From Patescibacteria group bacterium (GTDB lineage Bacteria; Patescibacteriota; Patescibacteriia; UBA1558; GWA2-36-10): a DNA stretch of 49,125 nucleotides. The notes under the pieces are model-generated. The model saw only the letters and a list, made by a program, of their open reading frames with translations. It did not search any database and was not told where the DNA came from. Of this stretch, positions 24,642 to 46,500 are shown piece after piece. The translations under genes were made by a program, and so were the position numbers. Each line of letters starts with the position of its first letter. The first letter of the stretch is position 1. The stretch covers positions 1 through 49,125 of the forward strand of contig JAGORJ010000003.1 of NCBI GenBank assembly GCA_018062885.1, read 5' to 3'.

Positions 24642-25793
24642 TTAGTTAGCTAACCTAAAAGGATAGTCGGTCATATCAAAATTAGCTATATTCTGACATT
24701 GGCATCCTGGTCCATATTTTGCAAAATTTTCTTCACTACAAGGATACCAGTCTCCAAGGTTAGTAACATCTTGAACAAAACACAGATAACCATTAGTACA
24801 AGCTAGGCCCATAGGACACATAAGTCCCGGACTTGATGGTGATTCAAATGTTACACCACAACTCTGAGCACTAGCCTCCTCTAAACACTGCCCTGTTGGA
24901 TAACCGGCAACATATACCTTCTCATTAGATTGAATTGTGTCTATATTTTTAATATTCAAACCATCAAATTGAACTAACCTTGTAGTGATATTACTTAAGA
25001 GTAAATTACCAGCAAATAACAAAGTAAGACCAAGTAATGCTCCGCGGATGGTTTCTTTGGCATTGTCTATTTTACCAGCATTACCAGAGGCCATTATCCA
25101 TTGCCAAGCAGCAAAAACTATCATAAACATCGCCATTAAACCCGCCAGGCCTGCTCCATATTTATATAGAGCATTAACATAAACTATAATAGCATCTCCT
25201 TTGGAGCTTAATATCAAACCATTTGGGCAATCTGTATATTTTTCGTCATTCAAAGGAAAGCCAGGAATAGGAAATTCCGGCTGAAAACAAATTGGCTTTT
25301 TTTTGATCACAGTTGCTACTCCACTAGAACCGCCACAATCATTGATACTAGCATGCACATGTGGCGCTCCCGGGCTAGATTCAAAAACAGCTTGAGCTCC
25401 ACAAGCATTCACTTGACTGATAATCGGCGCCGCTTGAGTAGCGTTTGCTGCTCGTAAATCTAAAGCGTAGGAACCACCTGCGCAAGCTCTACCATTATCT
25501 ACTAAAGTACCACCATAGTGATCAGATGAGCTATGATGACTGCACACATCATCAGTCCAATTAGTGACACAATGCGAAAAATAATCAGGATCATCACCGA
25601 TAGAGGTAATAATAAGATTTGAGTTTCTACCTGCTAAACAAGAAATCAACTCAAGTAATTTCGGACTAGCTTGATAACACCTATCCCGCTCATCACCAGC
25701 TTCCACCCTCAGGCCATTACAAGAAGCCGCTAAGCTTGAATCTGGGTACAAAAACAGCACCAAGAAAAATAGATAATAAAATATTTTTTTCAT
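24642..25793 (-). CDS. VirB2-like T4SS pilin fused to a putative LAS-type peptidase domain
   Basis: The protein has 383 residues. A signal peptide (about 1-23) is followed by a domain of about 130 residues whose spacing recalls LAS metallopeptidases (M15/M74 type): SSSDHYGG with His92, a cysteine-bearing insert, SYALDLR with Asp112, Glu138, and HVH (145-147). Then comes the T4SS pilin module (about 165-280): CFQPEFPIPGFP, GDAIIVYVNALYKYGAG and two membrane helices, nearly identical to the upstream gene. A cysteine-rich tail follows, with an MCPMGLACTNGYLC segment. It could be a pilus component that cuts cell-wall peptides. The pilin module is firm; the peptidase reading rests on motif spacing only. 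It is the last gene of the operon. Confidence 0.8.
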   Translation of the reverse strand: MKKIFYYLFFLVLFLYPDSSLAASCNGLRVEAGDERDRCYQASPKLLELISCLAGRNSNLIITSIGDDPDYFSHCVTNWTDDVCSHHSSSDHYGGTLVDNGRACAGGSYALDLRAANATQAAPIISQVNACGAQAVFESSPGAPHVHASINDCGGSSGVATVIKKKPICFQPEFPIPGFPLNDEKYTDCPNGLILSSKGDAIIVYVNALYKYGAGLAGLMAMFMIVFAAWQWIMASGNAGKIDNAKETIRGALLGLTLLFAGNLLLSNITTRLVQFDGLNIKNIDTIQSNEKVYVAGYPTGQCLEEASAQSCGVTFESPSSPGLMCPMGLACTNGYLCFVQDVTNLGDWYPCSEENFAKYGPGCQCQNIANFDMTDYPFRLAN

Positions 25794-25822
25794 GTTATTA
25801 AATACAACATTTTATCCGTAAT

Positions 25823-26737
25823 TTAATTACAAGAACTACAATTACTACGCAATGCGCAAGAATCAACTAGCAAAGAATCATTACAACAACAATATGCAGA
25901 AGTATTGGGATCTTCACTGGAATAAGTAATGCATTCGTCGTTACTACCACAAGAACCACTTAAAATATTTTTACAAGTAAAACCAAGATCAGTATCCCAT
26001 CGACAAGGACCATCTGTTGCTGTACTATCATTTAAACAAGCATTTCTATTTCCTGTACCAGAAAATGAACTACAAGTATGCGCCACTGGATATTCATAAT
26101 CATCCGGCACACAAGTACAAGACAAAAGTGAATCTGGATTACAAAAATCTCTTGTAGGCAGACCATCAACCACTGTCCTACACTCAGAGTTTGCCTGACA
26201 TTTACTACCCACACATCGAGCGCCAGTAGATGTTGACACGCTACCACATGGAATATAAATTGTGTTTGGACAAATATCAAAGCTCATACTTTTTAACTGC
26301 TGAGTAGTAATATTATTAATACTCAAACCATTGAAACTAACCAACCTATTAGTAATATTACCTAGGAGTAAATTACCAGCAAATAGCAGAGTTAAACCTA
26401 ATAGAGCACCGCGGATAGTATCTTTGGCATTATCTATTTTACCAGCATTACCAGAGGCCATGATCCATTGCCAGGCAGCAAAGACAATCATAAACATCGC
26501 CATCAAACCTGCTAGACCTGCTCCATATTTATATAAAGCATTAACATAAAGTATAATAGCATCTCCTTGAGAACTCAAAATCATACCACCCTTGCAATCT
26601 CCTGAAGGATCCAGTGGAAAACCAGGAATGGGAAATTCTGGTCTAAAACAAACTCCCTCAGCCAAAGAAATACTAGGTGAAACTAAAAAAACAAAGGCTA
26701 AAAAAAATATGGCTAAGTAGAGTTTTTTTTGTTGCAT
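25823..26737 (-). CDS. VirB2-like T4SS pilin with cysteine-rich ectodomain
   Basis: The protein has 304 residues: a signal peptide (about 1-26), then the T4SS pilin module, with CFRPEFPIPGFP, GDAIILYVNALYKYGAG and two membrane helices separated by the loop GNAGKIDNAKDTIRGA. This is the plan of CPR VirB2/TrbC-like pilins. From about residue 150 onward it carries a cysteine-rich tail of some 25 cysteines, including a CCC triplet, likely disulfide-bonded outside the cell. It lies between the beta-propeller gene (2-base gap) and the second pilin. The module was evidently duplicated, because the two genes are still very similar at DNA level over it. Confidence 0.85.
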   Translation of the reverse strand: MQQKKLYLAIFFLAFVFLVSPSISLAEGVCFRPEFPIPGFPLDPSGDCKGGMILSSQGDAIILYVNALYKYGAGLAGLMAMFMIVFAAWQWIMASGNAGKIDNAKDTIRGALLGLTLLFAGNLLLGNITNRLVSFNGLSINNITTQQLKSMSFDICPNTIYIPCGSVSTSTGARCVGSKCQANSECRTVVDGLPTRDFCNPDSLLSCTCVPDDYEYPVAHTCSSFSGTGNRNACLNDSTATDGPCRWDTDLGFTCKNILSGSCGSNDECITYSSEDPNTSAYCCCNDSLLVDSCALRSNCSSCN

Positions 26738-26738
26738 A

Positions 26739-27965
26739 CTATTTTAATAAAATGCTCTGCAGGCTGCCAGAGCTTTGATCAGTAAAATACAGCACCGAAC
26801 CATCTCCTGATAAAAATAGATTATAAGCTGTGTAGCTACCATCTTCCCCTACTGGGCTTGCTAGTAATGTTTTGGTACCAGTATTTAAATCAATATAATA
26901 AAAATTATCATTGTAACTGTCTGCTATATCTGGATACAAGCCAGCTCCCCGTGGCAAGCCTTGTGGCACCGCACAATAAAGCGCATTTTCTCCACCAAAA
27001 GTACATTTATCTGGCCAAGTTGATAAATTAAGAGAAACTTTAAGGTCACCTAAATTATTTGACTTACCGCCTGTAACCCAAAGATTAGGCAAGTAGTCTG
27101 TTTCTTGGTTGTAAACACTATATAACAAACTTGCGCCATCTGGTGACCATTGACTCTCGAAGCCACTACCCTGCACTGTAAAAGAGCGCAAAGACTGCCC
27201 TTGAGGTGTGATAGGAAAAACTTCTTGTCTCTGTAAATCATATTGTTTACGGTACATCGCAACGACCTGATTGTCTGGCGAGTAGCCAATTTGAACATCT
27301 TTTACCTTATCAGCCAAACCCTCTACCAATCTCATACCGGAACCATCGTCGTTAGCAATCACTAGCCAATTATCTTCTGCATTTGCGCCTAACCAGCTAG
27401 CAGTAATCTGTTGCCCAGAAGCATCAAAATCAAAATTAGACAACTCCACAGGCAAAGTCACGCTCTTGCCTGTACGAAAATTGTACAAAACATTCATGCC
27501 GTCTGGATATTCCAAAATTGCTTTTTCATCTCTGTCTGACCAAATGATATTTTCTACTTGATAAAATTTTTTGTCTGTCAAAAGCTCTGGTTTACCTTGG
27601 GCATTTATACGAAAAAATTGATTAGTGCTTTTATCATAATACTTCAAACCATTTTCAGTGCTTTTGAGACCATTTACTTCTGCGGTGCTTAGTTTAGTCA
27701 CCGCTGTCAAACCACCATTAGCTTTCGTAGAAACTTTATTTTCATCAAAAAAATTTTGCCAAGGCAGACCAGAATTTTGCTCGGGATCTTCTGGCACTAT
27801 ATTTGGACCACCCTGATCAGTGCCAGGGATCACTCCCCCGGAGAAATCATTTGGATCAGTGGGATCTATTTTGTCTGTACGGAAAAAAACCCAATACAAA
27901 GCAAAAATCATCACTAGTACAAAAGTAAAGAATGCGATAAATAATAAGATTTTTTTCCAATTCAT
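26739..27965 (-). CDS. Membrane-anchored beta-propeller protein
   Basis: The 408-residue protein has an N-terminal membrane helix (about 5-29), a Pro/Asp/Gly-rich linker (30-75), and a domain of repeated beta sheets. Several repeats show the PD40/TolB-type signature: IGYSPDNQVVAMYRK, SQWSPDGASLLYSVY, LFLSGDGSVLYFTD. This indicates a propeller of about six or seven blades on the outside of the cell. Such propellers mediate protein-protein binding. Its place between the two-helix membrane protein and the VirB2-like pilins suggests a scaffold in the secretion apparatus, filling a periplasmic role in a machine that lacks recognisable VirB9/VirB10. Confidence 0.82.
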   Translation of the reverse strand: MNWKKILLFIAFFTFVLVMIFALYWVFFRTDKIDPTDPNDFSGGVIPGTDQGGPNIVPEDPEQNSGLPWQNFFDENKVSTKANGGLTAVTKLSTAEVNGLKSTENGLKYYDKSTNQFFRINAQGKPELLTDKKFYQVENIIWSDRDEKAILEYPDGMNVLYNFRTGKSVTLPVELSNFDFDASGQQITASWLGANAEDNWLVIANDDGSGMRLVEGLADKVKDVQIGYSPDNQVVAMYRKQYDLQRQEVFPITPQGQSLRSFTVQGSGFESQWSPDGASLLYSVYNQETDYLPNLWVTGGKSNNLGDLKVSLNLSTWPDKCTFGGENALYCAVPQGLPRGAGLYPDIADSYNDNFYYIDLNTGTKTLLASPVGEDGSYTAYNLFLSGDGSVLYFTDQSSGSLQSILLK

Positions 27966-27986: not shown

Positions 27987-28388
27987 CTAGTTAAATGTAT
28001 ATAAATTTTTTATCTGTTCCCAGATAAAGCCCACTGGATCTGCCTTAATAGATAACAAAATCGCCAATAAAACAATAGCTATCAATACAGCCAGGAACAA
28101 GAAAGGGTAAAAAAATTTCTCCGCTCCTTCCAAAGCAATCGCTTTGTTGCCATACAAATTACCAGCGATAAACTGAAAAGACATGCTAGCAAAGGTGACG
28201 ATAATACCCGCTACTGTGGCCGCAAAAGCAACATTGATAATACGTAAAACTAAACGCTTGGTATTTTTCACCACCAATTTTTTGACTTGGTCCGTAGCTT
28301 GAGCTTGCAGACCATTGCTTCCAGCTTGTTTTTTGTCTTGCGCCAGAGCTCTGGCATTTTCTAATTCTCCTGCTAAAGCTTCCGCCAT
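27987..28388 (-). CDS. Small two-helix membrane protein of the T4SS-like operon
   Basis: The 133-residue protein has a charged cytoplasmic N-terminus (about 1-45, with many Ala, Gln and Lys) and two membrane helices (about 49-72 and 91-112). The C-terminal tail reads KADPVGFIWEQIKNLYTFN. There are no catalytic motifs. It directly follows the VirB8-like gene (1-base gap). The size and position would fit a VirB3-like or membrane-scaffold subunit, but sequence alone does not establish this. Confidence 0.75.
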   Translation of the reverse strand: MAEALAGELENARALAQDKKQAGSNGLQAQATDQVKKLVVKNTKRLVLRIINVAFAATVAGIIVTFASMSFQFIAGNLYGNKAIALEGAEKFFYPFLFLAVLIAIVLLAILLSIKADPVGFIWEQIKNLYTFN

Positions 28389-28389
28389 A

Positions 28390-28944
28390 TTATTGCCAGC
28401 TTACTTGATCAACTAGCCAAACATCATCACTTAAAACCAAATTAACCAAAACATCTTGCGCATAAATCTTTTCCTGTAAAGCGGTATTTGTTTCCACTCT
28501 TTGGGTGCGCACTAAAATTTCTGCCACGCCATTTTCTTCATCTAAATCATTGAGCGTATAAGAAATGCTTTTGCTAGTCACGCCATAAAAATCATCACGA
28601 TCATAATTGATCTCTATGTTATTGATATAATTTTGCATTTTCTGAGTGGACAAAGATAATAATTGTTGTAAATTTTGTCCTTGATTGTCAGTGGACCAAG
28701 AGCCAAAACGAGCGACATAAGTTTTGGCTAAATTTGCCACTGTAAACTCAGTACTTGCTTCTTGGCTTGGTGCTTCTGGGCTCAAAACTATACTTTCTAC
28801 TGGAAATATTGGTTGACTTTCAATGCTGTATATATCTGGCGGCAAGGTCTCATCTTTTTTCAAAAAAAATATCAACCAAACAACTAAAATTATAAGTAAT
28901 AATCCTAGAACAACAAACAGTATTTTCTTTTTTTTATTTTCCAT
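28390..28944 (-). CDS. Single-pass membrane protein, possibly VirB8-like
   Basis: The 184 residues start with a lysine-rich cytoplasmic tip (MENKKKK), one membrane helix (about 8-28), and a linker. An extracytoplasmic domain follows (about 70-184), with TVANLAKTYVARFGSWSTD and then beta strands SISYTLNDL, VAEILVRTQRVE and VLVNLVLSDDVWLVDQVSW. Helices followed by a curved sheet is the plan of NTF2-like domains, the fold of VirB8. It lies 4 bases after the VirB4 ATPase gene. VirB8 is the most likely counterpart, on the basis of topology and context, not recognisable identity. Confidence 0.72.
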   Translation of the reverse strand: MENKKKKILFVVLGLLLIILVVWLIFFLKKDETLPPDIYSIESQPIFPVESIVLSPEAPSQEASTEFTVANLAKTYVARFGSWSTDNQGQNLQQLLSLSTQKMQNYINNIEINYDRDDFYGVTSKSISYTLNDLDEENGVAEILVRTQRVETNTALQEKIYAQDVLVNLVLSDDVWLVDQVSWQ

Positions 28945-28948
28945 ATAG

Positions 28949-30823
28949 TTATATTTTTTCTTCTTCTAACATCGCTTCTTCAAACTCCTTTTTAGCGTCC
29001 TCTATTTCTAACAATTGTTTTGGATCTGAAGTGATAATCTGATGCTCAGCATAAGAAGCTTGTACTTTGATAGCAGCGTGCTTGGAGCCAGCAAAAAAGA
29101 TACCTTCACCTACACCAGACTCAAGTAATAAATATTTTTCTCCTTCAGTTAGCATAAAAGTTTTCTGTACCAAAGCAATGGAGGCTGGAGATTGTTTGAG
29201 TAATAACTGCAAAGAAGAATTAGTCACAATGGCAGCTCCATAAGGTGAGGTCAAAAAATCATTCACATCCTGAGTAATGGTTGTGACACCTAAATAATAT
29301 TTTCGACAACGCTTAACCAAAGCATACATAAATTTAGCACTGTCCTCATAACGCATCATCAACCAAGCTTCATCAACCACCAAAATCCTTTTTTTCATTT
29401 CACTTCTGATGATATTCCAAATATAGTTGATAATAACATACATACCGATCGGTCTAAGCTCATCCTCTAGATCACGAATACTAAAAACTACTAACTGATT
29501 ATTGAGCTTAATATTTGTAAAACTATTAAATAAACCTGAAAATGTACCTTCGGTATATTTTTTGATACGCAAAGCCATATCCTCTCCACCTTCCATGCCA
29601 AGTAAAATATCTTCTAAATCAGACATCACTGGCGGCTGAATATTGGCTAAATCTGAACTCGCGGTAATATCTTTTTTGGCATAAGTTTCAAGCAAGGCTC
29701 TATCGAGCAAAGAATCTTCCGCGTGAGTCAAATCGCCAATCATCAAACGAATTAAACCCTTGAGCGTGATGACAGCTGAGCGCAAAATATCTTCGGGCTT
29801 ATTGTCACCGCCAATACCGCGTGGCAAATCAAAAGGATTGAGTTTATTTTCTGAGTTTAAAGAGACATTGATATAGGCACCGCCAACGGCTTCTGCTAAA
29901 TGCTCATACTCATTTTCTGGATCAATGATCAAAACATCCGTGCCCAGCATCAAAGAGCGCAAAACTTCTAGCTTGATAGCATAACTTTTACCAGCACCAG
30001 AAGTCGCAAAAACAACGGCGTTAGCATTTTGTAAACTAAATCTATCAAACAAAATCAAACTATTATTATGTCTGTTGATACCAAACAAAATACCCTTATC
30101 AGAAGTAAGCTCAGATGACACAAAAGGAAAAGAAGAAGCAATCGGTGAGCTGTTCATGTTTGTAGTGATAGTCAACTCATCGTTACCCAATGGCAAAGTA
30201 GAGTTAAAACCTTGTTCAGTCTGAAATAAAGCCCTACGAGAATAAATCAACTGAGCACCCAATAAATTTTCTACTCTATCAGTCGCCAAATCAAGCTCTT
30301 CTAGCTTATTGGCATAAATCGTAATATATAAACCGAACTGGAAAAATTTTTCTGTACCTTGCGACAAAGAATCTCTCAAGGCCTCAATGTCCTGCAAAGC
30401 TGTTTCGGTAATAGGATCGCGAGGAGCACCTTTTTCATGATCAGACATAATCTGAGCTTCCATAGTACCTACTTTGTTGCGTAGTTGTTTCAAAACTAAA
30501 GCAATATCCAAGGGATAAAAAAACATCGAAATATCCAAGACCAAACTTTCATTTATAATGGGAGCAAACCAACCAACCGTCACATACCTGGGATAAGTCA
30601 TCACAAACAAAGTACGCACATACAGATTATTTAGGCGCAACAAATTTGTCTCCACTTGCATAGAAGCCGGAGCAATGATGTCTCTCACTGACACCACGCC
30701 TTCGCGAAAAACTTTTTCTGCTTCTAGTAGAGCCTTATTTTCAGCATCTAACTTTGGGTTGCTTTTGACTGGAGCTGTGGGCGTGGGTGCTTGATTTTGT
30801 TTTATTTTATTTGCTTCAAACAT
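28949..30823 (-). CDS. virB4: VirB4-family secretion ATPase, ATPase domain
   Basis: The 624-residue protein is the motor of the type IV secretion-like apparatus. Walker A is ATSGAGKSYAIK, Walker B is RILVVDEAWLMM, and the Q motif region is TTITQDVNDFL. The tail includes QLLLKQSPASIALVQ, as in VirB4/TraC proteins. The N-terminal 60 residues are polar and disordered. The start codon lies inside the end of the preceding gene (8-base overlap). Together the two genes supply what is one protein in most bacteria. It is cytoplasmic and membrane-associated and would energise pilus assembly or substrate transfer. Confidence 0.93.
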   Translation of the reverse strand: MFEANKIKQNQAPTPTAPVKSNPKLDAENKALLEAEKVFREGVVSVRDIIAPASMQVETNLLRLNNLYVRTLFVMTYPRYVTVGWFAPIINESLVLDISMFFYPLDIALVLKQLRNKVGTMEAQIMSDHEKGAPRDPITETALQDIEALRDSLSQGTEKFFQFGLYITIYANKLEELDLATDRVENLLGAQLIYSRRALFQTEQGFNSTLPLGNDELTITTNMNSSPIASSFPFVSSELTSDKGILFGINRHNNSLILFDRFSLQNANAVVFATSGAGKSYAIKLEVLRSLMLGTDVLIIDPENEYEHLAEAVGGAYINVSLNSENKLNPFDLPRGIGGDNKPEDILRSAVITLKGLIRLMIGDLTHAEDSLLDRALLETYAKKDITASSDLANIQPPVMSDLEDILLGMEGGEDMALRIKKYTEGTFSGLFNSFTNIKLNNQLVVFSIRDLEDELRPIGMYVIINYIWNIIRSEMKKRILVVDEAWLMMRYEDSAKFMYALVKRCRKYYLGVTTITQDVNDFLTSPYGAAIVTNSSLQLLLKQSPASIALVQKTFMLTEGEKYLLLESGVGEGIFFAGSKHAAIKVQASYAEHQIITSDPKQLLEIEDAKKEFEEAMLEEEKI

Positions 30824-31502
30824 CAGTTTCTACTCTTAATTTATTTATATCCTCTAAGGGCTGTTTTTGAAATAAATCTGGGTTATAACTATTATAATAG
30901 AGTTCAATCAAAGCTTGGGTGCTGAGCCTTTGTGAATTTAAACCCAAAGAAGCCAAACCTGACATGATAAAATTGGTTTTTTTATCAAGCTCAGTCGCTG
31001 CTTCAGCAAAATGCTTACGACTCAATTTAATCACTTTAGCGGTAGCAAACACTGAAGCTAGACGCGCAGCAAAATTTTTCTTGGTGTTACCACTTTCACT
31101 ATAAGGCACAATGACAAAAAACTTTTTGCTCATTATTTTTTCTAAAGTAAGCAGTTCGGTGATAAATTGTCGATAGTCAGCAATCTGCATGCGCAATAAC
31201 TCATTGACCTGCTCTTTTTCTTGTTTTTTTAGTTGATCCAAATAATCATCAATATTTAAAGGCCGAGACTGAATCACTACTTGCAAAGGATAATCTAAAG
31301 TATTGAGAAAACTCACATAGCCAGAAATCATCGCCCTCTGCTCTTCTTCTGACTTGAGATCAAAATTCACCGAGGAAACCAACAAAACAGCGCGAACACT
31401 ACCGTCATTCAAAATCACCACATCGTCTTGGACAGAAGCGATGCTCAAATATTTTTGCGTAGAATTAGCTACTTTTTTAGTAGCGGCCGTTTTATTTTTC
31501 AT
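30816..31502 (-). CDS. VirB4/TraC-like N-terminal domain protein (split VirB4)
   Basis: The 228-residue protein has the N-terminal domain of VirB4/TraC ATPases: QKYLSIASVQDDVVILNDGS, then VSFLNTLDYPLQVVIQSRPL, NIDDYLDQL, and an ending YYNSYNPDLFQ, which is the usual boundary before the ATPase part. There is no nucleotide-binding motif. I set the start at ATG 31502, four bases past the prgI stop, because the longer frame (from 31568) lies inside prgI. It stops with TGA and overlaps the ATPase gene by 8 bases, so translation of the two is probably coupled. The clean ends argue for a true gene split, not a recent frameshift. Confidence 0.85.
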   Translation of the reverse strand: MKNKTAATKKVANSTQKYLSIASVQDDVVILNDGSVRAVLLVSSVNFDLKSEEEQRAMISGYVSFLNTLDYPLQVVIQSRPLNIDDYLDQLKKQEKEQVNELLRMQIADYRQFITELLTLEKIMSKKFFVIVPYSESGNTKKNFAARLASVFATAKVIKLSRKHFAEAATELDKKTNFIMSGLASLGLNSQRLSTQALIELYYNSYNPDLFQKQPLEDINKLRVETDV

Positions 31503-31506
31503 ACTT

Positions 31507-31959
31507 TCAATTTGTTTGGATAAATTTATTACGATTAGCTTCACCTTTATAGACACCACCAGTGTCAATGATCAAAGACAATTCTGATAATTTACCGCTA
31601 TTAACTAAAGGTTTTGGCTTAATATATTCTTCTTTTTTTTCTTCGTTTTTTGATTTAAACTCTGAGACGGCTATATACTCCTTCATCCAGACACGAATTT
31701 TGGCTTTAGTAAAAGTATTTAAAAAATTACCAAAAAAAACATGAAAAGGTGCGCCATTGAATTTCACAAAAGCAAATAGTAATGTCACCGCCGTAATCAC
31801 AAAAGCCTCTAAAGCAAACAAGGCAAAGTCAGATAATTTGTAAGCGATAAAAATAAACAAAAAACCAATAATAACTATAATAAACTGTCTGACCGTCACT
31901 GGGCCAAAAATTTTATCTTCCGCGTCAATAAATTGTGGTACGATAAAACGCTCATTCAT
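31507..31959 (-). CDS. PrgI family membrane protein
   Basis: The protein has 150 residues. The start MNERFIVPQFIDAEDKIFGPVTVRQF is the family signature (P-x-F-I-x-x-E/D-D-K-I-x-G-x-x-T-x-R-Q). Two membrane helices follow (about 28-47 and 50-67), and the C-terminal half is a charged cytoplasmic tail. PrgI proteins are VirB3-like partners located next to VirB4 in Gram-positive and CPR type IV secretion loci. It lies 3 bases after the first gene of the operon and just before the split VirB4. Confidence 0.93.
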   Translation of the reverse strand: MNERFIVPQFIDAEDKIFGPVTVRQFIIVIIGFLFIFIAYKLSDFALFALEAFVITAVTLLFAFVKFNGAPFHVFFGNFLNTFTKAKIRVWMKEYIAVSEFKSKNEEKKEEYIKPKPLVNSGKLSELSLIIDTGGVYKGEANRNKFIQTN

Positions 31960-31962
31960 AGA

Positions 31963-33411
31963 CTAAAATCTTAAATTTTTATTTAAGTCTGAGATAGCGG
32001 AAAATTCTTCCATGGTCAAAGTTTCTTGATTATTTTGTTGGTACTGCGCAATGATAGCAGCTACATCTTTGCCTTGACTCAAGCTATCTGTGCCGATAGA
32101 CAAATACTGTCTATAAATAGGACTATTGCGCCAAGCCTCGATACCTTGGGCTTTTTTGGTGACTGAGTCTTTTTCCAAAATATTTATCTTGCTCAACAAT
32201 TTGGCACTTTGTTCAGACGGTGAGTTAGCTAGACGACGAAAATTATCCAAACTAAAACTTTGTAATTCTTCTATGGGGCCGGTTAAATTAACTGGCTGTT
32301 TTGGCGGCGGATTAAAATCTACTGACTGTGGCCTTGGTATTTCTTGTGCCCTCTGCTTGACATCAACCACTTGTTTTTCATTGACCATCTTTGGTCGAGA
32401 AACTTTAGGTAAAGGCACTTCTTGCGCTGCTACAGGCTCTATTGCAGCTAAAACCGGCACCACAAGAGCTGGCCTTTGTTCTTCAATAATAGGCTCAGAC
32501 TTAGTTTCAGCCACCTGCTTGTCTGCCATCTGATTATTCAAAGGCTTTACAATCACTTCTGCTGGTTTTTCTGCTATCTTTTCGGCTGACGCTGAATTAT
32601 CAATTTTTTTAGCTTTGGGTAAATCAGACAAAATATTTTGAATTTCTCCTTGAACTTCTTTTTCATCCAAACCAGCATCTTCAGAAATCTCAGCGTTTAG
32701 CTCTTTTTCTAATTCTTCCACTGGCCCACTTGGTAATTCTTTGGCTAAATTTTTGACAGCCTCACCAAGATCTTTGGCTAAATCTTTTTCCGTCAAAACC
32801 ACTGGCTCTTGCGAAATTTGCTTAGCTTTATTTACCGGCATAGACTCAAGCACTAAGCCCCCTTCTTGTTCAATATTGTACTTTATCGCCTTTATCACCG
32901 AGACCAAGCTATTGACAGTTTCTTCTGACAAAACAGTCTCTGCTGACATCACATTTTCCGACAAAGTCTCCCGGACAATGATAGCGTTTTTACGATTACG
33001 AAAAAAATCAAAAATAATCGTACTAAACTTTTTTTTATTTTCTGGACTCAGCTTTAGCTGGTGTTTTTCTACTAATTTCTCTACTATTTTTTCCAAGCTA
33101 TACTTTTTACTTTCATCTTTTGGGAGAGTTTTGGCTAATTCTTCAGCCTCTTTGGCATCTTCAGGATGGAAAACTAAATGCGATTTTTCATTTGGCTTGG
33201 CATTTTCAGGCAAAAGCATCAAAAAATGATCACTTTCAGGCATCAAAGCCGCTTGAGCAACTCGACTCAAAGCTGGCACTAAAGTAGTACCAGTAAGTGT
33301 GTTTTTTTGAATATTGGGCTGGCTAAACTGACCATTTTCATCTTTAACCAAAAGATTATCCATCAGATTTAGCTCATTTTCTTGCTCAGGTGTCAAAGTT
33401 GTTACTGACAT
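31963..33411 (-). CDS. Unknown cytoplasmic protein heading the T4SS-like operon
   Basis: The 482-residue protein has no signal peptide or membrane helix. The N-terminal part (about 1-170) looks folded, with VPALSRVAQAALMPESDHFLMLLP and a helical stretch KKYSLEKIVEKLVEKH. The middle (about 190-370) is a long low-complexity region rich in Glu, Lys, Ala, Pro and Val. The last 100 residues are helical again (SLDNFRRLANSPSEQSAKLL). It is the first gene after the promoter at 33.46 kb and precedes prgI by 3 bases. It could be a cytoplasmic adaptor or docking factor. I do not recognise the family. Confidence 0.78.
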   Translation of the reverse strand: MSVTTLTPEQENELNLMDNLLVKDENGQFSQPNIQKNTLTGTTLVPALSRVAQAALMPESDHFLMLLPENAKPNEKSHLVFHPEDAKEAEELAKTLPKDESKKYSLEKIVEKLVEKHQLKLSPENKKKFSTIIFDFFRNRKNAIIVRETLSENVMSAETVLSEETVNSLVSVIKAIKYNIEQEGGLVLESMPVNKAKQISQEPVVLTEKDLAKDLGEAVKNLAKELPSGPVEELEKELNAEISEDAGLDEKEVQGEIQNILSDLPKAKKIDNSASAEKIAEKPAEVIVKPLNNQMADKQVAETKSEPIIEEQRPALVVPVLAAIEPVAAQEVPLPKVSRPKMVNEKQVVDVKQRAQEIPRPQSVDFNPPPKQPVNLTGPIEELQSFSLDNFRRLANSPSEQSAKLLSKINILEKDSVTKKAQGIEAWRNSPIYRQYLSIGTDSLSQGKDVAAIIAQYQQNNQETLTMEEFSAISDLNKNLRF

Positions 33412-37996: not shown

Positions 37997-40567
37997 CTAC
38001 TTACGAATGGGATTACCAAATTGATCTAAAATTTTTGGTGAATTATCAGGAGCACCTCCAGTTGATTCTTTTTTCTTTCTTCCAACACCGTAAATTTCAG
38101 GATCGTATCCAGCAGCCTTAGCTTGATTAAATATCACATCCAACTCAACATTTGGCACATGACCCCTAGTTAATTGATTTGTCATTAATCGTTGTATTTC
38201 CGCTAAAACATCTGCTATTTTATCTTGGCGTTTATCTACATTTTGCTCTGAGACTGCTTTACCCATCTTATCTTTAGCTGCTTTAGCTTTTTCTTCTACC
38301 ACCGCTCTCAAATGTCCCGTGCCAGCTTGATCAGCCATAGCCTTGATTTGTGCCATCGTCAAATGCTTAGCTATTGCTTTAAAGACGCCGGAATCAGTTT
38401 TAATCTTAGCTAAATCAGCACCATCCATCATTCTAGCTAAATTTTGATCAGCTGAAGTAGAGTCAAATTTAATATGGCCATCATCTTCCCTAACATCTGT
38501 GATCTCTGGCTTCTTGGCTTCTGCTTCGCGCTCCTCTTTACTCATCTGTTCTATTGGTTTAGCCTTTTTAGCTCTTGCGTCATCTCTCACTCTGACATCC
38601 TCCTCAGCCTGACGCTGACTTTCTATCTTAGCATTTGCACGAGTGGTGTCAGTAACTTTTAGACCGCTAGCATACTTTGATAAAAAATTTGAATGTCGCC
38701 AAACAGCACTATTAGCATTATCGACACGCAAATCTTCAAATTTATTTTCACCCGTCTCTGTCCTCTTAACCGTATAAGCCTTAGTCTTATTTTTTTCATC
38801 AACTGCTTTCAAATCTTTGAGCTCCAATGTTGCCACATAAGCTGCTATGGCTGCCCAAGAATCGGCATCCATAGTTTTTTTGACTTCTGCTTGCTCTTTA
38901 TCAGTTAGCTCCAAGAAACCACGAGCCAACATCTGACCTCGCCTGTAATCATCAGATTCTTTCTTAGCTACAGTCACTACACCATTGTCATCCTTTTGAG
39001 AAAGATGTGAAATATCCATTTTAGAGTAAGTTTCCTGACCCTTACCTGCTTTGAGGCTTGCTTGAATACCATTTTCAGTATTTAAGAAGCCAAAAGTATT
39101 TTCTAACTTGGTCATAGTTGCCGTGTCATTGACCTGCTTAGCACGGTTGTATCTAGCTTGCGTTTCTTTGCGATCATCATCCTTAAACTCACCACTCTCT
39201 AACTTCATTTTATCTAAATTGCGCTTATTACTTCTGCCCATACTATTGGAATAAGCCTCTCTTTTTGCTTCACTTGACGCATTTTCTGACCATTTAGCTA
39301 CCTTAGCCTCTTTCCTTTGTAAACGACCAACTTTAGCACTAGTCATCATATTCTTGCCTGTCAAAGCTGCGCCCCTAAAAAGGCCGGTAGCAGCTACTCC
39401 TGTCAAACCAACTTGAGCAACACCCATACCAACATTTTGCACACCCGCCCTCAAACCACCCTCACCAGTTGTACCACGCCAAACCTTTGCAGCTCCCCAA
39501 GCAGCTGCGCCAATCGCACCAGCCTTGGCTGTATTTGCCATCTTCATACCTATACCAGAGGCTGTACCACCAATACTCTGTGTCACTTTGAGAGCACCAA
39601 GCAACATAGCAATACCGACAATAAATTTAAAAAAATTATCAGTTTCAGTCGCCTCTGTAAAACCACCCGATGTTCTTTTTTCGTCAGGTGTTTGCTGAGA
39701 GTCTGGTATGTCATTAATCACTGTTTCTACACTATCACCACCAGCACCACCGCCAACAATAGTAAAAGACAACCAGAGAAAAAAAGCTAAGACAGGACCA
39801 ACTATCAACTCTTTAGTAAAAGAACTCATCCATTGACCAAAATATGATTGCGTTCCTGGAAAAGCGTTGGCTAAAAAAGCCAAAGGAGACAAAACTATCA
39901 AAACCCACAAAGCCACTATTCTCGCCAATAAAGTGATAATAAAACCAAAAACCACGATGCAAGTCAAAATCATAAAGACACCAGCAAACAAATAGCCCAA
40001 GATGATATTTACAAAAAGATTTACACCGGTATCTTTTTTAATCTGAGCAGGATCCATGTTCATGATAGTATCCAAACCCAAAGCAGTCACTATATTACCG
40101 GCTGCAATATCTTTCCAAGTAGCCACAAAAGTCAGCATCACCAGTTGAGAAGCATCAATCACTAAACCCACTATTAGCTTACTAAAATTAATCAAAATCG
40201 CCATCAAAATAAGTCTTTTGAGCACTTGCTTATAACCATAAGCGTCTATTTTCAAAATAGTTGCAAAAGACATGATCAAGAGAATAACGATAAAAAACAT
40301 ATTTGACATGTCACGCAAAGCCACCCAACCTTCATTGACACCACTCATATTGGTGAAGCGATCCCATTGGGCAACCATCGGCAAAATGATCAGTTCTAAT
40401 TTTATCAAAACCACAAAAGGCGCTACTAATAAATAATACAAGATAGAACCCAGTGTATCGGTCAACCAATCAGCATAAGTGACCATAGGTACTGCCAAAA
40501 AGACACTGAAAATAGCCAATCCATAGAGCCAAGATTTTAGTTTAGGTTTTTGCATTTTGATTTGCAT
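37997..40567 (-). CDS. VirB6/TrbL-like channel protein with long soluble tail
   Basis: The 856-residue protein divides in two. Residues about 1-350 have a signal-anchor and about seven further membrane helices, with the conserved run DAYGYKQVLKRLILMAILINFSKL and the segment ALWVLIVLSPLAFLANAFPGTQ, as in VirB6/TrbL-type proteins. Residues about 380-856 are soluble, highly charged and Lys/Glu/Ala-rich (for example VRVRDDARAKKAKPIEQMSKEEREAEAKK), with a proline-poor helical end. VirB6 forms the inner-membrane channel of type IV secretion systems. It follows the giant secreted protein by 26 bases. Confidence 0.85.
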   Translation of the reverse strand: MQIKMQKPKLKSWLYGLAIFSVFLAVPMVTYADWLTDTLGSILYYLLVAPFVVLIKLELIILPMVAQWDRFTNMSGVNEGWVALRDMSNMFFIVILLIMSFATILKIDAYGYKQVLKRLILMAILINFSKLIVGLVIDASQLVMLTFVATWKDIAAGNIVTALGLDTIMNMDPAQIKKDTGVNLFVNIILGYLFAGVFMILTCIVVFGFIITLLARIVALWVLIVLSPLAFLANAFPGTQSYFGQWMSSFTKELIVGPVLAFFLWLSFTIVGGGAGGDSVETVINDIPDSQQTPDEKRTSGGFTEATETDNFFKFIVGIAMLLGALKVTQSIGGTASGIGMKMANTAKAGAIGAAAWGAAKVWRGTTGEGGLRAGVQNVGMGVAQVGLTGVAATGLFRGAALTGKNMMTSAKVGRLQRKEAKVAKWSENASSEAKREAYSNSMGRSNKRNLDKMKLESGEFKDDDRKETQARYNRAKQVNDTATMTKLENTFGFLNTENGIQASLKAGKGQETYSKMDISHLSQKDDNGVVTVAKKESDDYRRGQMLARGFLELTDKEQAEVKKTMDADSWAAIAAYVATLELKDLKAVDEKNKTKAYTVKRTETGENKFEDLRVDNANSAVWRHSNFLSKYASGLKVTDTTRANAKIESQRQAEEDVRVRDDARAKKAKPIEQMSKEEREAEAKKPEITDVREDDGHIKFDSTSADQNLARMMDGADLAKIKTDSGVFKAIAKHLTMAQIKAMADQAGTGHLRAVVEEKAKAAKDKMGKAVSEQNVDKRQDKIADVLAEIQRLMTNQLTRGHVPNVELDVIFNQAKAAGYDPEIYGVGRKKKESTGGAPDNSPKILDQFGNPIRK

Positions 40568-40593: not shown

Positions 40594-43500
40594 CTATTGT
40601 TGATAAACCACTACCCAAGCATCATAATCGACTGAAGAAACTCTCTCCCAATTGTCAGTCACCGATACACTTGGCTGATAACAAGCAGCGTTCAAAATAT
40701 TTGGTCTGCCACCACTACCATCACAAGCGTATTCCGCATCTGGCTTATAAACATATGGATGATAAAAAGTTTTGTAGCCAGCCTGACAAGCTTCTTGGGT
40801 GCCGGCAAAACCCATCCTGCCTTTGCCACGAATTTCGACATTTGGATCACAATAGTCTGCTGGCATATTATTTTTATATCTTTGAATAAAGCTGCCTGCA
40901 AGATCACCTCTAACAGTACCATCTCCCCAATCAACCCCGATATTGACTATCGGCATATGATCAGGATGAGCATGATAAAAGAAACGTAAATCCGTGTCCA
41001 CTGCTCTACGGCCAACAACATTTTGTCCATTTTGCGCATTTACCGTAATACCTGTTTGAGCCTCAGGACATAAACCGTTGCCACAAACTTTGTAAATCAT
41101 CGGATTATAGTCAGGGCCAGCGTCTTGATTAACCTGAACATCATATACACCATTTACTGGATCTGTTATACCGCCAGTATAAGAACCTCCGCTCCAAGTC
41201 AAATTATACAAACGAGCAAATAAATATTGCATTTGCGCTCTAGCTGTATTAAAATCCCGGCCAAAAAATATAGCTGCTTCATTAGGATTTTCCTGAGTAC
41301 TCAATGGCGCTTGAGTGACAACTGGGCTAGCCGAAGAGCTTCCCTGAGCACTACCAAAATACTTACTTATATTTGGCGTATTTATGTTTGTGCTATCAAA
41401 ATATACAGCAGAACGAGCATAGCTTGCACCATCATAATAATAGGCTTGCCAACCTCTATTGAAAGTAGCATTTTGTGAACTACGCCACCAAATATCTGTT
41501 CTGACCCAAGATAAATCCCTATCACCTTCAGCACCTATCTGAGAAATAACTTCACACTGCTGGAGACACTCAAGTCCTGAACAACTTGCACCCGGTTGAT
41601 CTACTTCGTAACCTCCTGCGGCCGTACAAGAATCCTCAATATCAGAATCCAAACAAAGATCAACTTCATCCAACAAATCAGCATTTACACCTGCCCTCGC
41701 ATTAAGAACGCCGCCACTAACCTGAAAAATACTAGCCAAACAACCTTGTACGTTAGTCGGAGTACATCCAGACCAATCACATGTTTGCTCAATGTTGCCA
41801 TACTCACTGCAATATGGCGTAGCCAATGGATTAGGCAGAGACTCTACACAGCGCTTAAATAAACAATTTGCGTCTGTTCCACAACCAGCAGACGGCACAG
41901 TGATTCCGCTATATGCATCTTCTGACCTCAAACACTCCCTACCACGCTCAGGTCCCGCACAATTAGTTTCCGTACAAGTCAAGTCAGAAATTGAACTATC
42001 TGTCTTCACATAATAATTATAAGCCAAAGGATTGCAATACCTAGTACCATATTGTTTTCTAGCACCATAGAGACCACAATGACTACTGCCACGCCAATCT
42101 CTCACTTCTACCTGATGAAACCCACCTGGACAAATATCCACATCCCAATCATTACAAGAATCTTCATCCTCATAAATCTGAGCTCCGTTTGCTAACACCT
42201 TATCATTGTCGCTACCACTATCCCCTTCATCGAGATTCCAAGTACCATCTCCCTCCACCGCTTCATCAAAATAATAATATTCTATTTCACCGGTAACGCT
42301 GGCAAAAAGTGACGCTAAGTCAACCGGATTTATAACTATACCTTCGAAACTATTGTGACCACCAAAATCTTGACTCTCAAAAAATGCACCCTCTGTAACA
42401 CACTCACCTCTATCTCTATTATCATCATTTTCTCCGGAACAAGCATTATCAGCACCAACTTTTCTAACACCTTCCACACTAGACTCGAAAACAAAAGCGT
42501 TGTTTGTCAAATAATTACCATATGCAAAAACACCAAAACTAGCAATTTGATTAAGCTTAATTTTTGAATTAGCTGGCACCTTTAATAATACTGTACAACT
42601 AAACCCAGTATCAACACCAAAACCATTTTCAGTCGATCCACAATAGTATCTATCTGCTTGCGTCACAAACTCCTCTCCGACTGCGCACATCTCTAAGCTA
42701 TTGCCAGACTCATTATAAAAACCAGCTGTGGTGAAATTGTTATACAAACTTTGGGCGCCCTGAATCTGTCCGACTGGATACCATTGATTACAATAATTTT
42801 TCAAAGCCACGCCTTGAGCGCCATCTTCTGGAATATTAGTAGATAAATCAGCTTCCAAACAAATGCCCTCCCAATTTAAGAATTTTTCTATCTTGCTAGG
42901 TGGCGAACATCTACCACCAATACCACCGCATTGACTATTTTGTTCACAAAAGTCACCTTCTTCCTTTTCCACATTTTCATCCTCACCTATAATTGTACAA
43001 ACTGATTTACTAGTGTCCTCATTACCATTTGCAAAATACTTCACAAAACCAGAAGCACTATAAGTCACTTTCTGATAACCTGGTTCACAGCCATTAGTGC
43101 CATCTTCACAAATGTTTGCTTCTATGAAAGCCTGAGCTTTTTCCACTGTTTGCTTCGACTCATTATCAATGATACTGCTAGCAAAAGGAGCATCTTGAGT
43201 GGCATAGGCCCTGGTAGAAAGCTTGACGACTTCTTCATCGGCTTTTGGATTGAGCCAATACAGACCATCTTTACAAGTGGCTGGGTATGTTCCCAAACCT
43301 CTCAAATTAATCTGATCAATATCTAGATCTTGAGCTGGTGTACAGGTTACATCGGTCTGATAAACCAAACGCAAGTCTGTTTCATTTTCATCTGCTGCGA
43401 AATTATAAGAAACTAAATCTTTGACTGGTAAAAAGTTTGGTAAAGAATAACCAAGGTATTCTTTGTCTGACCAAGTCAAATGACTATTTTCACCTGTAGC

Positions 43501-46500
43501 TCTGTTTTGATACTCGGCAATATCCAAAGGTGCTGTGTCACCATAAGTTGACCATTGAGCACACTGACTGATGTTACTGGCAGTATTAAAATCTGTACAG
43601 CTGTCTATCGCATCACAAACAATCTTGTATGAATTTGTCTTTGGATCCAACACTGCAGTTGAAGACTTACAAGCCAGCCACTCGGCACATTGTCTATCTC
43701 GTCTGACTTGGACCAACTTATTAGCATCCAAAATGCCGGTGGTGATAGGTGCCACCGCCGCGTTTTGTTCTACATTTAAGTCATAAGTATCCAGTGTATT
43801 GTATTGATTGATAATTTCACTATGCTCACCATTCCAATTGTTTTCATCTCTCAATAAAATACAACCATTATTTTGATCAAACTGCCCCGCACATGAGCTA
43901 AGATCTATTTTGTTGTTATTATAATAGTAATAAGGCTTGTTATTATCCAAAGGATCAGAAAAAGTAGTACAAAGATTTTTGTCATCCGGACAACTGGCTG
44001 CCCAATCAGACACTAGCTCTAAATCCAAAGCATTTAGCTGACCGTCTTCATCGTCACTACAACCGATTGGGCTCGTGGCTAAACTATCAGTCTTAAACCA
44101 ACCATTCCACAAAACACCATTGATATTTAGATTCTTTTTGTAACTACAATTTTTATTACCTGGATCTTGGAAATAATAAACACCTTTATCAGAATTATAA
44201 GACTCACAATACAAAGCATCACTCGTGCACAATGATTGCGCATAATTATCTGGATTATTTATCTTATAAACAGTACTGTAAAGCTGCTGACCATCAGCAT
44301 TCACCTTAATAAGATTGTTTGCTTGATCCATTTGTGGCAAGCCCAAAGCGCTACAACCTTTGTAACCTTGTGGACAATAATTTTCTACTTTTGGTACCAA
44401 ATAGACCAAGCTATCAGCTGGTAAATTGAGTTGTGAGTCTAGTCCTGAGTGGAAAGTTTCTGCAAAAGGATTGAGGGAATTTTGTGTATCAATGGCTGCT
44501 ACACAACCGATAGAATCTTCTCGGCATAAACTTGCAAATGATTTCAAACTATAATCTGTACCATTGGTATCCTGATAAGCCTGACAGCCTAAATAGGCAC
44601 CAGTAAATGGTGTGTCACAAGACACTGGTGTTGACCAAGAATTTTTGACTAAAGACAAATTGTCTACTACTTCTTTCAATAAAATATTATCCAAAAATAT
44701 TTCACCCACACCATTTAATTCAAAGCGTAAACTTAAATTATCAAGCTCATTAAAATTAAAATTTTCTCCTGAAGACACTTGATAATTACGCCAAGTATTC
44801 GCTGACACACTTTCTAAAATGCCTAACTCATACTCTTCACTGCCATCTGTCAAAAATACTCTAACACTAGATATATTAGCCGTAGTTTTCATCCACCATG
44901 ACAGCTGATAAGCTTTGTCATTTTGCAAACTAGAAAGTGTTCTACTCAAAGTAGCATTAGCGTTGACCTTCAAAGAATGGCCACCGTTGGCTAAAGATTC
45001 ATTGGATAAATCCAAAGACGCCCCACTCCAAGGACTATAAGTATTATTTTCAAAATTATCCAAAAATACTTGTCTGACATTGTTTGCTGACTCACCCGCG
45101 TACCAGCGACAGCCAGCATATTGCGCTTGGCAACTATGACTTAAATTTGCAATCGCTTGATACTCTTGGCCGGTGCTCGCTCTCCTAAAAGACACACACT
45201 CAGCTGAAGCATAAATAAGCCTATCCTCTAAACGATAAAAAGCATTGCCTTCGGTATCAAAAAATTCACGACAATTTGGATTGACATTTGGATCATCAGC
45301 AGGGTCTGCTGTATCAGGTCCACACACAGCCATCAAACTCACATCGTCTGAGTCTATACAAGTATTTGTACCTGGTGCCACATTTGTACATGGACCAGCG
45401 TCAACATCACTTTGTAAAAAGGTCCAGGTCTTGAGCTGATAACCAGACACATCTTGACCTTCCCAAGTATAATACGTAGCGATATTTCCGGCTGACATTG
45501 GCACACATTGTCTCAGATAGCTATAATACTCTTTACCTTCGCCTCCCTTTGAGACAATATCCAAATTGGTAAACTCTTCACAGCCAACTTCTGAGCTAGG
45601 ACACTCCCTAGCTGTATCAGGAATAAGATTATAATATTCTGTATCCAAATCATTTTCCAAAACATCAAAAATATTTGGACTCTGGGCAAAAGAAGCATAA
45701 CCCACACATTCAGATGGACAGAGGTCACCGGAAGCAATCACCCCTGGAATCATCGGATCACCATTGGCCGGGAAATAGCCACGACAACCAACTTCTTCAA
45801 GCAAACACATTTGCCTATCATCATTCATGAAAATTCTTGCACCATCGCCGTAGTTCGTAAAAGAACTAGCTAAAGTTTGATTTGCTCCCACTTCTTCTAG
45901 CTTAACTGCATCTAAAATTGCGCCGGCACCCAAAATATTTATATTAAAACTAGTAGCTTGAATATTTATAGGAAAATTGATACTAAAAGATTCAGACTGC
46001 CAATCTGGTGTAATATCAAAAGTCTGACTAAATAATTCTCCCGTGCTAGTGCTCACTACAAAAGTAAAGTTATTTGGAGATGATGCTTTGGCCTGAAAAC
46101 TAAAAATAAATTTCCGATTCTTTAAAGGCACACCGCTTTCAAAACCAGTGCTCAAAGAATTTTGAAAACTACCAGCTTTAGCACCCAAATAAGCATCGCT
46201 CACAATGCTTAAGTTTGGTGATGACCAAGCGCTGGCGTCATACTCAAAGCTACCATTAGGCAAAAGATTGACGCCTAAGCCTGAAGCCATAACAATAAAC
46301 TCATGACAACCAGCTTGATCAGAAGGGCAATCAGCTGCCTTGTCATTCAAAAACAAATCATCATTGTCACTGGCTATATCTTGCAAAAGCCAAGCATTGT
46401 TTGCATCTTGTTCTTGAGAATAGCGCTTGCAACCAACTTCATCAGCCGTACAATAGTCAAGTGTTTGCTCGAGATAAGACATAGACTCTTCACCATTGTC

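Follow-up and report, generated by a model that had tools for sequence, protein, structure and literature searches.

Patescibacteria encode type IV secretion systems (T4SSs) that resemble those of Gram-positive conjugation, yet possess VirB2-like pilins; VirB1 is usually absent from the vicinity of virB4 and is missing altogether from most VirB2-bearing Patescibacteria genomes (PMC12102498). S. epibionticum cannot grow as an epibiont without its T4SS and the associated pilin array (PMC10633639). Wall hydrolases with several domains serve Gram-positive T4SSs; one of them, PrgK, includes a LytM domain of the LAS superfamily (PMC12857230), and ChiX, an M15-type LAS enzyme, is required for a secretion process (PMC5778951). 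In the relevant sections of the papers on Patescibacteria pilin arrays (PMC12102498, PMC10633639), no pilin is credited with an enzymatic domain, and no description of a pilin-LAS fusion was found in the open-licence literature searched, which agrees with an earlier note on this locus that knew of no described system of such form, although an absence of this kind is weak evidence.

Here, we describe a pair of pilin genes in a stretch of 49,125 nucleotides (hereafter the window, meaning the whole of the DNA that was analysed) from a Patescibacteria (CPR) genome of 731 kb, the source of which is a tiny bacterium with a probably host-dependent lifestyle. One of the two pilins carries an additional domain with conserved ligand residues and a predicted LAS fold. 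Our favoured reading, which we hold with only a modest margin of confidence, is that this protein is a pilin-anchored peptidoglycan peptidase and a built-in substitute for VirB1.

The two genes (24642-25793 and 25823-26737, both on the minus strand) are genuine, adjoining open reading frames of 383 and 304 aa, located at the downstream end of a Patescibacteria T4SS operon. In the order of transcription, all on the minus strand, this operon comprises a soluble 482-aa protein of unknown function (31963-33411, the first gene of the conserved operon), a PrgI/VirB3-like protein (31507-31959), a TraC_F_IV-like partner of VirB4 recognised by a weak Pfam match (30816-31568), a VirB4-type ATPase (28949-30823; P-loop_TraG, 8e-27; CagE_TrbE_VirB), a single-TM protein (28390-28944) inferred from topology and position to be a VirB8-like candidate, a small two-helix membrane protein (27987-28388), a protein that is anchored in the membrane and weakly matches WD40/PD40 propellers (26739-27965), the 304-aa plain pilin and, lastly, the 383-aa protein, which we call the LAS-pilin. 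The virB4 gene is thus encoded on the same strand as the pilin pair, and both the two-helix and the propeller-like proteins are kept in the operons of relatives. The same gene order was seen in a genome of the sister genus (G009), and a similar one in genomes G485 and G509. The function of the propeller-like protein is unknown; it adjoins the pilins in many such operons. Elsewhere in the window, the minus strand encodes a 2556-aa protein (40594-48264) with one N-terminal membrane helix, 96 cysteines and a weak match to the carbohydrate-binding model CBM_4_9, possibly resembling a giant Cys-rich surface protein, and, adjoining it, an 856-aa protein (37997-40567) that matches no Pfam model and is predicted to contain eight or more membrane helices.

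The LAS-pilin consists of a signal peptide, the LAS-like (M15/Hedgehog-type) domain (residues 24-155; 25329-25724, minus strand), a pilin module with two membrane helices (residues 168-288; 24930-25292, minus strand) and a Cys-containing tail, while the plain pilin combines the same core with a long Cys-rich C-terminal ectodomain. The earlier note had placed a cysteine-rich tail in one protein and the peptidase-like domain in the other; this is corrected here, since the LAS-bearing protein has a tail of its own. Its claim that two adjacent genes share a near-identical pilin module with different ectodomains held: 99 of 121 residues are identical (82%; BLASTP E 2e-66), and within the two-helix core identity reaches 96% in protein and 87% in DNA (dN 0.035, dS 0.68). 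With the Pfam model PF18895 (T4SS_pilin) the window cores score 24.5 and 24.3 bits, just below the gathering cut-off of 26.6, which relatives exceed (e.g. 36.7, 33.0 and 30.7 bits), and the NCBIfam model of the Mbov_0395-type pilin weakly matches both. The assignment of the pair to the VirB2/PF18895-like T4SS pilins held, with polymerisation into a pilus being inferred.

G009 likewise has this pair, arranged in the same order, and an assembly artefact was accordingly dropped as the origin of the duplication. Cores within the G009 pair are 97% identical, while orthologous cores of the window and G009 share only 71% identity. In genome G391 (L047:7100-9477), a tandem pair has cores 100% identical in both protein and DNA but differing C-terminal ectodomains, which may point to recent duplication or gene conversion. 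Recent duplication fits this last pair (dS 0) but, as the sole cause of near-identical cores, misfits those of the window and G009 (dS about 0.7-0.8, dN <0.04) and was rejected. Within each of these three genomes the membrane core has been homogenised or held under strong constraint, while the ectodomains differ; we infer from this that the two subunits need to fit into one and the same assembly. Near-identity of paired cores is not universal, as the two cores in G485 and in G509 are only ~50% identical.

The ~130-aa stretch of residues 24-155 goes unrecognised by the models of Pfam, NCBIfam and PHROGs. Used as a single query against these three collections and the PDB, the domain yielded no useful match, leaving a family profile as the only informative probe. 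Profile searches of CPR genomes recovered the domain in 28 other genomes, bringing the family to 29 proteins. Within the class to which the window belongs it is confined to 23 of 286 genomes (the window's own included), with the remaining finds elsewhere in the phylum. All 29 proteins are linked to T4SSs: 24 contain a pilin core, and the other five are membrane proteins encoded beside virB4. The domain precedes the core in two cases (window and G009) and follows it in 22. By Pfam alone, PF18895 matched 21 of 28 members at E<0.01, and VirB4 was found in 16 of the 17 genomes tested. The family is very divergent (mean column identity of 27% among aligned members), with six to twelve cysteines per domain. 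Four loci (L050, L051, L052 and L072) encode, directly downstream of virB4, two-helix membrane proteins of another kind that bear the LAS domain, and at three more (L049, L057 and L060) the LAS-pilin gene has arrays of short plain pilin-like genes either directly beside it or close by. One scan of viral contigs and a tblastn search of plasmids yielded no relative of the domain, so a phage or plasmid origin is unsupported.

Conservation was assessed in an alignment of 27 members, from which L072 was left out. Six residues are invariant in it: S90, H92, Y93, D112, H145 and H147. Among these, His92 in the SxHYGG motif (25518-25520) and Asp112 in the SxAxD motif (25458-25460) are predicted zinc ligands, and the HxH motif His145-Val-His147 (25353-25361) is predicted to supply the third ligand and an active-site His (all coordinates on the minus strand). 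His86 of a CxH motif (25536-25538, minus strand) is kept in 26 of the 27, and several cysteines are, like it, nearly invariant. The ligand order His, Asp, His of the LAS superfamily is therefore present in the alignment, together with the H-x-H third motif of the M15/Hedgehog type; zinc binding and catalysis are both inferred. This degree of conservation excludes a chance alignment of His and Asp. Outside the alignment, L072 reads HxY instead of HxH and its domain may be inactive.

The spacing between His92 and Asp112 is H-x19-D in the window protein and ranges from x9 to x20 across the 27 members, none of which meets the H-x6-D usual in M15/Hedgehog proteins; the family therefore has an insertion between the first two ligands. 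Glu138 (25380-25382, minus strand), a candidate general base at the end of the strand preceding HxH, is not strictly conserved: E-x-x-H-x-H occurs in 15 of the 27, while the in-register acidic residue is absent in 12, so some members may be inactive. The window protein is one of these 12: here Glu138 closes the strand in question, and the loop leading on to HxH is longer. Measured against the earlier note, His92, Asp112, Glu138 and HVH (145-147) were all located as given and the proposed conservation of His and Asp held within the alignment, whereas Glu138 failed strict conservation as part of the site, and a spacing "like a LAS peptidase" had to be corrected.

When a 26-member profile was compared with PDB sequences, 22 of 23 matches were Hedgehog N-domains, the best at E 0.02. 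CsHskNScHYGG...SyAvDf...dHiHvS was aligned with HHSEESLHYEGRAVDI...AHIHCS of Hedgehog, bringing SxHY, AxD and HxH into register and pairing His86 with the histidine of "HHSEES" that, in Sonic hedgehog, lies six residues ahead of the HYEG histidine. With a slightly altered alignment an unrelated 14.5 kDa salivary protein topped the list, the Hedgehog matches having dropped to E 0.2, so the sequence evidence by itself is marginal. No member matches the M15 or HH models at E<1, and Pfam HH_signal (PF01085) exceeded its cut-off in none of 20 genomes.

AlphaFold models were obtained for the window domain (pLDDT 78.5, pTM 0.74) and the G391 domain (pLDDT 86, pTM 0.81). Foldseek against the PDB gave no significant match for either (best E 0.31 and 0.08), and the claim about the fold rests on structural realignment with VIA-align. 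For the window model, LAS proteins occupy rows 1-26, with Hedgehogs in rows 1-23 (Z 7.1-8.0), followed by VanX, Ply500 and LdcB. For the G391 model, LAS/M15 proteins fill rows 1-34, the first non-LAS row having Z 5.2; they include LysECD7 (Z 8.5), Hedgehogs (7.5-8.3), ChiX (7.7), the S. albus Zn DD-peptidase (6.4) and EndoT5 (6.3), as well as VldE and the RB49 endolysin. Although Z values of ~8 are modest, an unbroken run of 34 rows belongs to one superfamily and concurs with what motifs and profile show independently, which makes the LAS assignment likely. On the strength of these models, the domain probably represents a divergent LAS family outside the strict Hh/DD-peptidase family, with M15/Hedgehog types as its closest solved folds; it would, in other words, be a new and unannotated LAS family. 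The earlier note had named an unrelated fold, or His/Asp residues that are not conserved, as the outcomes that would refute it; neither was seen, the predicted fold being LAS in both models. Of the M15/M74 comparison that it suggested, the M15 side was borne out alongside Hedgehogs and M74 in particular was unsupported. Assignment to the M74 or M23 type specifically was dropped, as no such structure came near the top of either comparison, although neither type is excluded.

One family member, in genome G587 (L068:8969-10876), joins a signal peptide, a pilin core, an SLT lytic transglycosylase domain (E 7e-19) and the LAS domain in a single chain, and possibly represents a complete wall-cutting pilin, an inference made from the sequence alone. 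SLT is absent from the window protein, and G587 is the only LAS-domain member to have it. Of 20 genomes searched for SLT genes only 3 were positive; the window's own genome had none, and neither did 16 of the 19 relatives examined. By inference, the LAS-pilin would work like VirB1 without being a member of the VirB1 family, lacking as it does an SLT/lysozyme-like domain.

In the mechanism that we propose, the 383-aa protein would be a VirB2-like pilin subunit with a divergent LAS zinc-peptidase domain outside the membrane, sharing a membrane pool with the plain pilin of near-identical core. Most likely it would be incorporated into the T4SS along with the plain pilin, in the role of a minor subunit, and thereby keep a peptidoglycan peptidase in place at the machine; this enzyme would cut stem-peptide cross-links, allow the channel or pilus to pass the wall and take the role of the VirB1/PrgK-type hydrolases of other T4SSs. 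Both the peptidoglycan substrate and co-assembly into a filament are inferred. The scheme fits the known biology set out above. A pilin carrying a wall hydrolase, the central suggestion of the earlier note, is supported to the extent that the architecture recurs in relatives, with cutting itself still inferred; that it breaches a host wall was neither borne out nor refuted, and action on the wall of the producing cell is equally undecided. A bolder reading, which we regard as no more than possible, is that a zinc-dependent peptidoglycan peptidase is exposed on the T4SS filament through the minor pilin, that the pilus cuts the host wall on contact, and that the enzyme was recruited in more than one arrangement: before the core (2 genomes), after it (22) and with a lytic transglycosylase (1).

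The most serious rival, and a possible one, is that the domain belongs to an anchored hydrolase that is no filament subunit at all, the pilin hairpin merely tethering it beside the T4SS base, where it opens the cell's own wall as a true VirB1 analogue. Five of the 29 members, encoded at the equivalent place in the operon, are anchored by transmembrane segments of another kind; the pilin core may hence act merely as a membrane anchor, and the classical VirB1 and PrgK proteins are separate from the pilus (PMC12857230). Against this, 24 of 29 use the pilin core, its near-identity to that of a plain pilin in several genomes is hard to explain for an anchor, and in three genomes the LAS-pilin lies beside or near plain-pilin arrays. 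It is less probable, and in our opinion unlikely, that the domain is a pseudoenzyme that binds peptidoglycan or another host-surface ligand, in adhesion or anchoring, without cutting, as do inactive LytM factors or Hedgehog. The loosely conserved acidic residue before HxH and the Hedgehog ligands among the top structural matches would be consistent with such a role, as would the Cys-rich ectodomains of plain pilins in the same operons, which by inference may be adhesive. However, all candidate metal ligands are invariant across very divergent members, whereas inactive LytM-type proteins usually lose theirs, and one member (G587) additionally has an SLT domain.

Two further alternatives appear very unlikely. 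A zinc peptidase might act on proteins, for example on host surface proteins or an S-layer or in the maturation of the Cys-rich pilin ectodomains; LAS metallopeptidases do cut peptides, and autolytic (cannibalistic) activity was reported for ShhN (PMC6027127). The bacterial M15-type matches (LysECD7, ChiX, EndoT5, LdcB and VanX), however, target cell walls or cell-wall precursors, and the SLT fusion in one member also speaks against a protein substrate. Alternatively, the domain might not be LAS-like but a small, disulfide-rich one whose conserved Cys and His residues merely hold a structural metal, in keeping with the six to twelve cysteines and the non-significant Foldseek matches. This is opposed by the motif order SxHY, SxAxD, HxH, by two models topped by LAS proteins and by a profile that matches almost only Hedgehogs. 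The pilin-anchored peptidase remains our preferred reading.

In comparison with known systems, the window pair shares with the VirB2-like pilins of Patescibacteria (PF18895; PMC12102498, PMC10633639) a two-helix core, a signal peptide, a location in or near the virB4 operon and side-by-side paralogues. It differs in that one paralogue bears a peptidase-like ectodomain, and in a core identity of 96-100% (three genomes), compared with a within-array identity of 25% on average and 54% at most (PMC12102498). The Hedgehog N-domain and its bacterial counterpart bacHh (PMC6027127) are closest to the LAS-pilin domain by sequence profile; bacHh is in part >50% identical to ShhN, whereas the LAS-pilin family shows ~20% identity over the structural alignment, without the strict H-x6-D and without PF01085 above cut-off. 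M15-type LAS peptidases (ChiX, LysECD7, Ply500, EndoT5, VanX/VanY and the S. albus DD-peptidase) share the predicted fold and the ligand order His, Asp, His, but the LAS-pilin domain stands apart through its H-x9-20-D insertion, many cysteines, constant T4SS link and position below Pfam detection. Like VirB1, PrgK and TraG, with their SLT, muramidase, CHAP and LytM domains, the LAS-pilin would represent a membrane- or T4SS-associated peptidoglycan-acting domain encoded with its machine. Those proteins are separate and not fused to pilins, while the LAS-pilin domain is of the M15/Hedgehog type rather than M23, with SLT in a single member. A secretion machine of this kind may carry its own wall cutter, and the pilin-borne LAS domain offers a concrete candidate for the missing enzyme, with a named gene and named residues.
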